A stretch of DNA of 53,443 nt from Acidobacteria bacterium 13_1_20CM_3_53_8. Lineage in GTDB: Bacteria > Acidobacteriota > Blastocatellia > Pyrinomonadales > Pyrinomonadaceae. Below the pieces are notes generated by a model. That model was not told the DNA's origin. It saw only the letters and a list, made by a program, of their open reading frames with translations, and searched no databases. Numbering within the stretch: the stretch's first letter is position 1; the number at the start of each line of letters is the position of its first letter. Position numbers and translations under genes: made by a program. Location: assembly GCA_001920415.1 (NCBI GenBank), contig MNJR01000033.1:1-53443 (forward strand), read 5' to 3'. Shown here piece by piece: positions 44,929-46,505 of the stretch.

Positions 44929-45573
44929 ATGCTTCGTGTCACAGAAATTTTTCGTTCGATTCAGGGTGAATCAACGCATGTGGGTCGCCCGTGCGCGTTC
45001 GTGCGGCTCACGGGCTGCCCCATGCGCTGCGTCTGGTGCGATAGCGAATATACTTTCACGGGCGGCGAGCATATGGAGATTAAAGAAGTGATGGAGCGCG
45101 TGCAAGCGATGGGGTGCAGACTCGTTGAAGTCACGGGCGGCGATCCTCTGGCGCAGCGCGAGGCTTTCGAGTTTATCAAGAGGTTGTGCGACGAAGGCTA
45201 TGAAGTTCTGATTGAGACGGGCGGTTATTTTTCGACAGAAAAAGTGGACGAGCGCGCGAAGATTATTCTGGATATAAAATGCCCTGCGTCTGGCGAGGAA
45301 TCGCGCAACCATTGGCCCAACCTTGAACGACTGCGCGCAGACCGCGATGAAGTTAAGTTCGTCATAGCGAATCGGGAAGACTGGGAATACGCGCGCGAGG
45401 TCATCAAGCAATATGATCTTGAGAGGCGCGCTCATTCGGTTCTCATCTCGCCCGTGTGGGGCGAAGTTGATCTACAGGAATTGGCCGACTGGGTTTCGTC
45501 AAGCGGCATGAACATTCGTTTGCAGCTACAGATGCACAAATACATCTGGGGGCCGGAGGCGCGTGGAGTGTGA
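44929..45573 (+). CDS. queE: 7-carboxy-7-deazaguanine synthase
   Basis: The 214-residue radical-SAM enzyme has the cluster motif C30-x3-C34-x2-C37 (RLTGCPMRCVWCDSEYTF) and the usual start LRVTEIFRSIQGESTHVGRP. It converts 6-carboxytetrahydropterin into 7-carboxy-7-deazaguanine in preQ0 synthesis. The product goes to QueC, encoded next. The 3-base spacing of the last two cysteines fits the short-cluster QueE type. No Shine-Dalgarno site precedes the ATG; palindrome E12 ends 7 bp upstream. Confidence 0.88.
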   Translation: MLRVTEIFRSIQGESTHVGRPCAFVRLTGCPMRCVWCDSEYTFTGGEHMEIKEVMERVQAMGCRLVEVTGGDPLAQREAFEFIKRLCDEGYEVLIETGGYFSTEKVDERAKIILDIKCPASGEESRNHWPNLERLRADRDEVKFVIANREDWEYAREVIKQYDLERRAHSVLISPVWGEVDLQELADWVSSSGMNIRLQLQMHKYIWGPEARGV

Positions 45574-45576
45574 AGG

Positions 45577-45701
45577 AAGGGATAAGGGCGGAGGGATGAG
45601 GGATGAATAGGAATTGAGCTAATTGCATGCTGACGCAATTACTCCTTCTTATTCATCCCTCATCCCTCATCCCTCATCCCTTGTTTCATCCCTCATCCCT
45701 T
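45577..45701. repeat. Heptamer palindrome E13 (GGGATGA word)
   Basis: The left arm (45577-45611) has GGGATAA, GGGCGGA, GGGATGA and GGGATGA words. The right arm (45651-45701) is the complement, TCATCCC, in five or more copies. The apex has ATTGAGCTAATTGCATGCTG. It lies between queE and queC, just 6 bp before the likely queC start. Confidence 0.85.
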
Positions 45702-45707
45702 AATATT

Positions 45708-46505
45708 ATGGGTGGATTCGACGAAAAAGCTTTTGACAGCCCGGCGGATGAGCCGGATGCGGAGGATGCTGAGCGCACAGATGAATCTGGTTCATCCCTC
45801 ATCCCTCCGCCCTCATCCCTTCCATCTTCCCTTGCTGTTTGTCTTGTCTCAGGCGGGATGGATTCGTGCGTGACTGCGGCGATTGCGCGTGAAGAGAATG
45901 CCGAGGTCGCTTTTCTTCACGTCTCTTATGGGCAGCGCACTGAGGCGCGCGAGCGCAGGGCGTTTGAAGAGATTGCAGATCACTACGGGGTCGCAAAAAG
46001 GCTCGCCGTCTCGATTGAGCATCTGGCTAAAATAGGCGGCTCGTCCTTGACGGATAAGAATATTCTTGTCGCGGAAGCTAATCTTTCAAGTAAAGAGATT
46101 CCCACCAGCTACGTTCCCTTTCGCAACGCGCACCTGCTCTCAATTGCAGCGAGTTGGGCCGAAGTCATCGGCGCCCGGAGCATCTACATAGGCGCTGTGG
46201 CTGAAGATTCTTCGGGCTATCCAGACTGCCGACCGGAATTTTATGAAGCGTTCGAGCGCGCGATTGACTTGGGCACGCGACCCGAAACTCATATTAAAAT
46301 CGTAACGCCTGTTATTGCCATGCGTAAGTCTGAGATTGTGCTGCGAGGACGCGAACTTGGAGCGCCGTTTCATCTAACGTGGTCATGTTATCAAGCTTCT
46401 GAGCTGGCCTGCGGCTCCTGCGATTCCTGCGCGTTACGCCTGCGCGCCTTCCGCGAAGCGGGCGCCCGAGACCCTGTTGGATACGCTCGAAACGAGCGCA
46501 TTTAA
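45708..46505 (+). CDS. queC: 7-cyano-7-deazaguanine synthase with repeat-derived N-terminal extension
   Basis: The enzyme part starts near [18 protein letters not shown] (PP-loop SGGMDS) and continues through [17 protein letters not shown] to the zinc site with [11 protein letters not shown] at the end. It turns 7-carboxy-7-deazaguanine into preQ0 with ATP and ammonia. Here about 42 residues precede the usual start. They include an acidic part and [14 protein letters not shown], encoded by TCATCCC heptamers at 45792-45826. There is no in-frame start between 45708 and the catalytic part other than the ATG at 45708, and it has no Shine-Dalgarno site. The frame also runs from an ATG at 45627 through the right arm of E13. 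Confidence 0.85.
45792..45826 (+). repeat. TCATCCC heptamer run inside the queC coding region
   Basis: TCATCCC occurs at 45792-45798, 45799-45805 and 45813-45819, with variants TCCGCCC at 45806-45812 and TTCCATC at 45820-45826, all in 7-bp register. It is the same word as in the right arm of E13. A gain or loss of one unit would shift the reading frame before the catalytic domain. Confidence 0.8.

Follow-up and report, generated by a model that had tools for sequence, protein, structure and literature searches.

The queC gene of a member of the Pyrinomonadaceae probably includes, as a tolerated N-terminal tail of the encoded enzyme, the coding arm of a dispersed, heptamer-built palindromic family, in the manner of the Rickettsia palindromic elements (RPE) and with no role as a switch; this reading builds on sequence comparisons within the genome and across the family. 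The window, that is, the whole stretch of DNA analyzed (53,443 nucleotides), is contig C94 of a 6.1-Mb genome (G000). The features of the locus, all on the plus strand, are as follows:

44929..45573, plus strand: queE (7-carboxy-7-deazaguanine synthase), the upstream gene; NCBIfam TIGR04349 rSAM_QueE_gams and TIGR03963, Pfam Radical_SAM
45572..45606, plus strand: left (purine-rich) heptamer arm, starting from the queE stop codon; RNA fold pairing and match to the in-gene arm
45607..45652, plus strand: palindrome centre, common to dispersed copies (25 of 26 aligned copies)
45653..45700, plus strand: intergenic right (pyrimidine-rich) heptamer arm, (TCATCCC)4 and (TCATCCC)2; TRF, pattern search and fold
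45708..46505, plus strand: queC (7-cyano-7-deazaguanine synthase), 265 aa; Pfam QueC PF06508, TIGR00364
45708..45790, plus strand: queC start codon and codons of the MGG tail, probably the earlier portion of the extension; 38 of 90 loci start with MGG
45791..45833, plus strand: in-gene right arm of the repeat family, QueC residues 29-42; 42/43 identity to a dispersed copy

The upstream gene matches TIGR04349 (E 1.4e-84, 283 bits, below the cut-off of 300 for this profile) and TIGR03963 (E 9e-54, likewise below the cut-off). The QueC assignment is based on PF06508 (E 2.4e-72 at residues 70-278 of the 292-aa ORF, with the whole core and the SGGxDS loop matched) and TIGR00364 (178.6 bits, above the cut-off of 150.3). 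Named relatives of this QueC come mostly from Pyrinomonadaceae and other Acidobacteriota, two being from Poribacteria and Calditrichia. A second QueC-like protein, with 35% identity, is encoded elsewhere in the genome (G000:C67:7183-7848).

Read from the ATG at 45708, at which translation would start, QueC has 42 residues ahead of AVCLVSGG, in agreement with the approximately 42 extra residues reported in an earlier note on this DNA. The heptamer units that the note placed in this extension are there, encoding residues 29-42 at 45791-45833, and the proposal that the queC start region has taken up heptamer DNA is borne out by the 42/43 match of this segment to a dispersed copy and by the existence of homologs without it. 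The start codon was also correctly described as lacking a Shine-Dalgarno site: no such 4-mer was found in the bases printed before ATG 45708, and in the sampled genome one precedes 125 of 383 well-scored ATG-started genes versus 21 of 383 at a control position. An enzyme start further downstream was rejected because in-frame ATG, GTG and TTG codons are all absent between the array and the SGG loop. Two statements required correction. The gap palindrome does end just before the ATG, at about 45700, but 7 bp away rather than 6 bp, and the extension is abnormal only in its repeat DNA, not as a whole, given that an MGG start and tail are found in 38 of the 90 queC loci compared.

An AlphaFold2 model of QueC, for which 30 sequences were aligned, gives residues 1-40 pLDDT values of 45-59 (blocks of ten) and residues 41-50 one of 95, with the first strand running from residue 42. 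The last codon of the in-gene arm is codon 42, the first residue of modeled beta strand 1, so that, according to the model, the repeat DNA would reach exactly to the fold.

TCATCCC occurs 22 times in the window, compared with 4.4 expected and a maximum of 9 among 100 shuffles, and 11 of the 22 occurrences are located within 45593-45819. The RNA of 45572-45707 is predicted to fold with -76.1 kcal/mol (z -10.5), pairing 45572-45613 with 45646-45687. The fold predicted for 301 nt joins the left arm to the intergenic right arm and not to the in-gene arm, and an attenuator-like competition of the two right arms for the left one was rejected on this ground. Segment 45572-45707 has 91 matches in its own genome, a count that includes both strands of each palindrome and for which 40 of 94 first-look candidates were scored. 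Among 26 aligned copies, a centre of approximately 45 bp is common to 25 (L300 differs), the arms form inverted repeats, and the heptamer arms vary in length. Beyond the arms, the flanking sequences of these copies have mostly nothing in common, and another palindrome makes up one or both flanks in five of them. Specifically, the TCATCCC element is embedded in a GTACCGCC...GGCGGTAC palindrome on both sides in L287, L295, L298 and L299, and on one side in L284. The gap palindrome thus belongs to a dispersed family of elements of about 100-150 bp that form a long stem-loop, as RPEs do. No transposase could be tied to the family by inspection of 1.5 kb around the four Y1_Tnp (RAYT) genes: only one of the four has a heptamer array within that distance, and its unit differs from that of this family, so that a RAYT is not established as the mobilizer.

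The copy near G000:C25:50003 has a right arm identical in 42 of 43 positions to the coding segment at 45791-45833, an identity that spans the non-heptamer end TTCCATC.TCCCTT and exceeds the match of this segment to the reverse complement of the left arm at queE-queC (34/36). A 22-mer of the in-gene arm that includes the variant unit TCCGCCC has 32 exact copies in the genome and is also present in the left arm. Of these copies, 14 form 7 purine-first inverted pairs, six with a spacing of 54-96 bp and the queC pair with one of 207 bp. Because of this identity and the 32 copies of the 22-mer, the coding stretch is DNA of the repeat family rather than a private product of slippage.

Arrays with a period of 7 are a general feature of this genome. 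We detected 124 in 453 kb of its sequence and none in one mononucleotide shuffle; in the same 453 kb, there were no arrays with periods 4, 5, 6, 9, 10, 11 or 13, four with period 8, one with period 12, and 84 with period 14, a harmonic of 7. Many arrays are palindromes with a purine-rich left arm and a pyrimidine-rich right arm, and in 33 two-arm palindromes (arm identity of at least 75%), a variant unit in one arm often has its counterpart in the opposite arm. By eye, palindromes built of different heptamers often have AAAAGC...GCTTCTT or its complement in common in their loops (33 palindromes from the window and L041-L058), a likeness hinting that one system might lie behind all unit families. 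Period-7 arrays avoid coding DNA: in 846 kb, where our own codon-usage script assigns 81% of the sequence to genes, 28 of 372 arrays are located in these called genes. The 28 include two runs of N and one array (window 31095) that resembles ordinary coding sequence, and some others, in genes taken to be QueA-like (L143) and XdhC-like (L141), may precede the true start. Of the gaps of at least 60 bp, those between co-directional genes carry arrays in 112 of 327 cases, those between convergent genes in 13 of 56 and those between divergent genes in 10 of 68. Arrays in co-directional gaps are separated from the upstream stop by a median of 15.5 bp and from the downstream start by one of 45 bp. In many of the genome's heptamer families, the unit is not rich in G.

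The comparison of queC across the family (119 genomes in total) included 90 loci, namely 89 of the 110 family genomes with QueC, with 21 left out, and one locus from outside the family (G045). The 38 of the 90 loci with the MGG start and tail include L020, taken as the isolate Pyrinomonas methylaliphatogenes K22 (L205). In 17 of the 38, the queC ATG overlaps the queE stop by one base; given these two counts, the MGG tail is probably older than the repeat. Where an element fills the gap instead, it is predicted to form a strong hairpin (for example, z of -9.6 in L009, -8.2 in L010, -11.6 in L015 and -7.7 in L026). Of the MGG loci, 13 have a gap of 40 nt or more; in eight of these, the MGG start is preceded by a hairpin with a z of -4 or lower, differing in sequence between loci, and no strong fold was found in the other five.

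A period-7 array is present within 60 nt ahead of the QueC core in 24 of the 90 loci (shuffle p <=0.01). At a score of at least 9, 23 loci have an array of period 7, four of period 8, two of period 9 and none of periods 4, 5, 6 or 10. In 17 of the 24 loci, the array is coding, behind an ATG in the frame of the core, a status that follows partly by construction because the frame of the core was extended backwards. Six other arrays lie wholly or mostly ahead of the start used, and an 18th coding array (L117) was excluded from the 17 as it depends on a TTG start. Five loci (L100, L104, L117, L118 and L134) have no ATG in the open frame of the core and use GTG or TTG instead, and in L117 and L134 the TTG lies within or beside the heptamer array. 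At the same site of QueC, L115 appears, by eye, to contain a translated period-8 array (GTCTCCGC-like). In 20 queC-centred neighborhoods, arrays coding within the first 150 bases of a gene were found 5 times in queC versus once in other genes (Fisher p 4e-6, calculated with denominators of 19 and 266, whereas the actual set, chosen around queC, consists of 20 regions and 285 genes).

The units at queC belong to the classes TCATCCC, TCATCCT, TCATCRC, TCAACCC, AATCCGR, AATCCCA and AATTTCA, with CTCTCCC recognized by eye in L029. We searched for unit classes, by six patterns, in 14 genomes, three of which (G014, G035 and G139) were left unscored because their queC unit falls outside the patterns. 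In 8 of the 11 scored genomes (G000, G004, G010, G007, G028, G030, G074 and G022), the class of the queC unit outnumbers all others searched for in the genome, after subtraction by hand of the copies inside queC (an assumed 3 for G074). None of 20,000 permutations gave as good a match for ten genomes; G026 was added after this test. In G005, G071 and G026, the queC unit is not common in the genome, the sole match in G026 being queC itself. With 1,807 matches to AATCCGRAATCCGRAATCC in 7.4 Mb, G074 has by far the highest count of the 14 genomes.

A universal partnership of left and right arms at queC was rejected: the complementary left arm of the same locus scores better than those of all other loci in 5 of 21 cases (L009, L010, L029, L036 and L131). 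Hence, most coding arms look solitary. The summed left/right score (451 versus a mean of 347) exceeds those of all 20,000 permutations, and this excess is driven by a few loci. A quick tree gives 17 state changes for 21 array carriers (L015, L028, L029 and L115 were judged by eye); however, because 48 of the 87 inner branches are weak, it yields no firm count of independent origins.

Four other explanations of the queC arrangement were weighed. An origin by slippage in situ, with the array arising from a chance duplication within queC and unrelated to the intergenic elements, draws on the finding of one study that heptamers outnumber the other long simple repeats in most genomes, for which polymerase slippage was proposed (cited in PMC4679880, as excerpted). 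The dispersed copies already largely refute such an origin at queC, as the sequences compare: neither the near-identity to another locus that continues through the non-heptamer end nor the recurrence of the 22-mer with its TCCGCCC unit fits a local product, and we give this alternative hardly any credence. The earlier note proposed instead an on/off switch of preQ0 synthesis, in which gain or loss of one 7-bp unit would shift the frame. The arithmetic of such a switch holds (one unit is 7 bp and three are 21 bp), and some relatives (L011 and L018) have four identical units. Nevertheless, the MGG start is in none of the 38 MGG loci found solely out of frame, and an ATG, GTG or TTG in the frame of the core is available in all 90 loci (GTG or TTG only in five), although L011 and L106 have an additional out-of-frame ATGGGNGG beside the in-frame one; these allele counts represent one genome per species. 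Furthermore, the in-gene array of the window has at most two identical adjacent units, compared with four in the intergenic arm, so queC lacks the long run of identical units typical of phase-variable genes, and because the coding segment matches the dispersed copy, the number of units is not specific to queC. In the present data, with one genome per species, a phase switch finds no support, and we regard it as very improbable.

Two further alternatives are less easily dismissed, yet both appear unlikely. Old vertical inheritance, whereby a single ancestral in-gene array drifted genus by genus with no new insertions, would explain why TCATCC-like arrays are largely confined to the clade that has the MGG tail and why the degenerate forms SSHIPSTSSL (L014) and SSINPPPSSL (L015) look like decay. 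Against it, the unit classes differ in kind (TCATCCC, AATCCGR, AATTTCA and, by eye, CTCTCCC), in 8 of 11 genomes the unit belongs to the class that is most frequent there among those searched, and the tree requires 17 state changes for 21 carriers, even if many of its inner branches are weak; on balance, this scenario has a small but appreciable probability. Slightly more room, still well short of an even chance, is left for a regulatory element, that is, for the queE-queC hairpin, or a G-quadruplex of GGG tracts, setting mRNA stability or queC translation. The strength of the predicted fold, the hairpins of differing sequence at 8 of 13 long-gap MGG loci, and the frequencies of arrays in co-directional, convergent and divergent gaps of this genome all speak for such a role, as does the reported preference of Xanthomonas and Nostoc heptamers for sites near the stops and starts of co-directional genes (PMC4692102, as excerpted). 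Conversely, there is no intergenic gap in 17 of the 38 MGG loci, and a strong fold is missing from 5 of the 13 with a long one; the 301-nt fold pairs the left arm with the intergenic arm and leaves out the in-gene one; and the many heptamer families that are not G-rich do not fit a quadruplex.

Under the preferred explanation, a tolerated tail derived from the repeat family, the gap palindrome is one member of a dispersed, non-autonomous family with arms (AGGGATG)n...(TCATCCC)n around a common centre, and a further right arm of the same family is part of queC itself, presumably acquired through mobility or conversion. Translated, the in-gene arm would form a flexible Ser/Pro-rich linker between the older MGG tail and the QueC fold. 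Family DNA would be retained where a protein tolerates extra residues, in this case flush with the first beta strand. As the pyrimidine-rich arm is free of stop codons in all three frames, family DNA could stay in such tolerant sites, and any number of TCATCCC units would be translatable as a 7-residue repeat, with the frame set by the total length only. Selection on the enzyme would then keep the unit number in frame and, therefore, QueC on. The mRNA hairpin formed right after the queE stop would replace the one-base stop/start overlap of relatives and probably uncouples queC translation from that of queE.

Palindromes and heptamers are read through in other proteins as well. In PurL of this genome (L048:13371-15899, minus strand), the two halves of the protein are separated by a complete heptamer palindrome that is read in frame: the part aligned with the solved chain 3viu_A breaks off at chain residue 371 (query 379) and picks up again at residue 391 (query 486). 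MurB of the same genome (L142:3236-4357, minus strand) ends in SLESGVWSLES.VSSS..DETGTIENPKSKIENQ.DSRLQTPDSRL, nearly the peptide of the PurL insert and in the same frame. In both PurL and MurB, a GATTTTCG array is situated inside an AGTCTGG palindrome, a nesting at palindrome centres like that of the TCATCCC copies. An RNA pseudouridine synthase (PF00849; L145:11156-12202, plus strand) reads through an imperfect heptamer palindrome. Judging from open frames, in-frame copies in conserved genes, as known for RPEs, would thus occur in queC (one arm), PurL, MurB and the RNA pseudouridine synthase. A TetR regulator repeats the queC layout, with the right arm coding and the left arm after the upstream stop. 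In relatives, the same linker site of an M16 peptidase is occupied by different in-frame heptamers in three genomes (L069:1465-2736, L074:11291-12562 and L078:1544-2821); a protein resembling DNA polymerase III alpha, possibly DnaE2 (L062:12664-16191, minus strand), contains eight detected heptamer arrays in frame; and heptamers are also read through in LpxK. At L049:5122-5649 (minus strand), an AAAAGGC/CTTTTGC palindrome encodes a Lys-rich and then hydrophobic N-terminus that ends in FFTSC, precedes a DUF4019 domain and, by eye, resembles a lipoprotein signal peptide. A VWA protein (L139:9420-11108) opens with a CTTTTGC-like array.

A broader interpretation, which we offer tentatively and consider possible though somewhat short of probable, is that the palindrome pool of each Pyrinomonadaceae genome copies or converts its own unit, in frame, into fixed protein sites that can be dispensed with (the N-terminus of QueC, the linker of the M16 peptidase and that between the PurL domains), resulting in concerted evolution of non-coding repeats and linkers. 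In free-living bacteria, repeats would become protein segments, repeatedly at one enzyme site and often with the unit of the respective genome, which raises the testable question of whether the palindromes are merely tolerated or supply linkers, tails and signal peptides. For annotation, such N-terminal extensions can be genuine reading frames rather than gene-calling errors.

As far as the excerpts of the papers cited here go, the components of this arrangement are known separately: in-frame palindromes in enzymes (PMC2229807) and heptamers near gene ends (PMC4679880, PMC4692102). Searches of the open-licence PMC literature retrieved no title on such elements in Acidobacteria among the best matches listed; the combination of Acidobacteri- with heptanucleotide gave none, and that of Pyrinomonadaceae with palindromic gave titles on other subjects. 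The combination of these components with a genome's own unit at one orthologous site was not found in the literature searched. Like the TAACTGA repeats of marine Beggiatoaceae, the heptamers described here occur near starts that lack a Shine-Dalgarno site, some are read through at protein ends, and the stop-free orientation decides placement (PMC4679880); unlike these direct repeats, they have other units and a palindromic layout. With GGGAATC and GGGGAYT of Xanthomonas and Nostoc, they share dispersal, rarity in genes and divergent gaps, and proximity to sense-strand stops, but those heptamers are described as G-quadruplex units, and in-frame use at one orthologous site does not appear in the excerpts of PMC4692102. 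REP/RAYT systems likewise involve short many-copy palindromes, some inside genes; however, REPs are 20-40 bp long and tagged with GTAG or CGTC (PMC3733652, as excerpted), and no RAYT link is established for the heptamer palindromes. In mitochondria of Nematomorpha, translated genes contain inverted repeats that keep both pairing and protein, with both arms encoding conserved protein (PMC6649704, as excerpted), whereas the QueC arm encodes a tail modeled at low confidence. The closest resemblance is to RPEs and other bacterial MITE/ORF fusions, among which an RPE-bearing guanylate kinase was reported to be translated and active (PMC2229807). Both are palindromes of about 100-150 bp with many copies, mostly intergenic and in some cases in frame in conserved enzymes (PMC2229807, as excerpted); the arms in Pyrinomonadaceae differ from RPEs in being tandem heptamers of many unit types, often with one arm coding, and in that the units found at one protein site vary from genus to genus.
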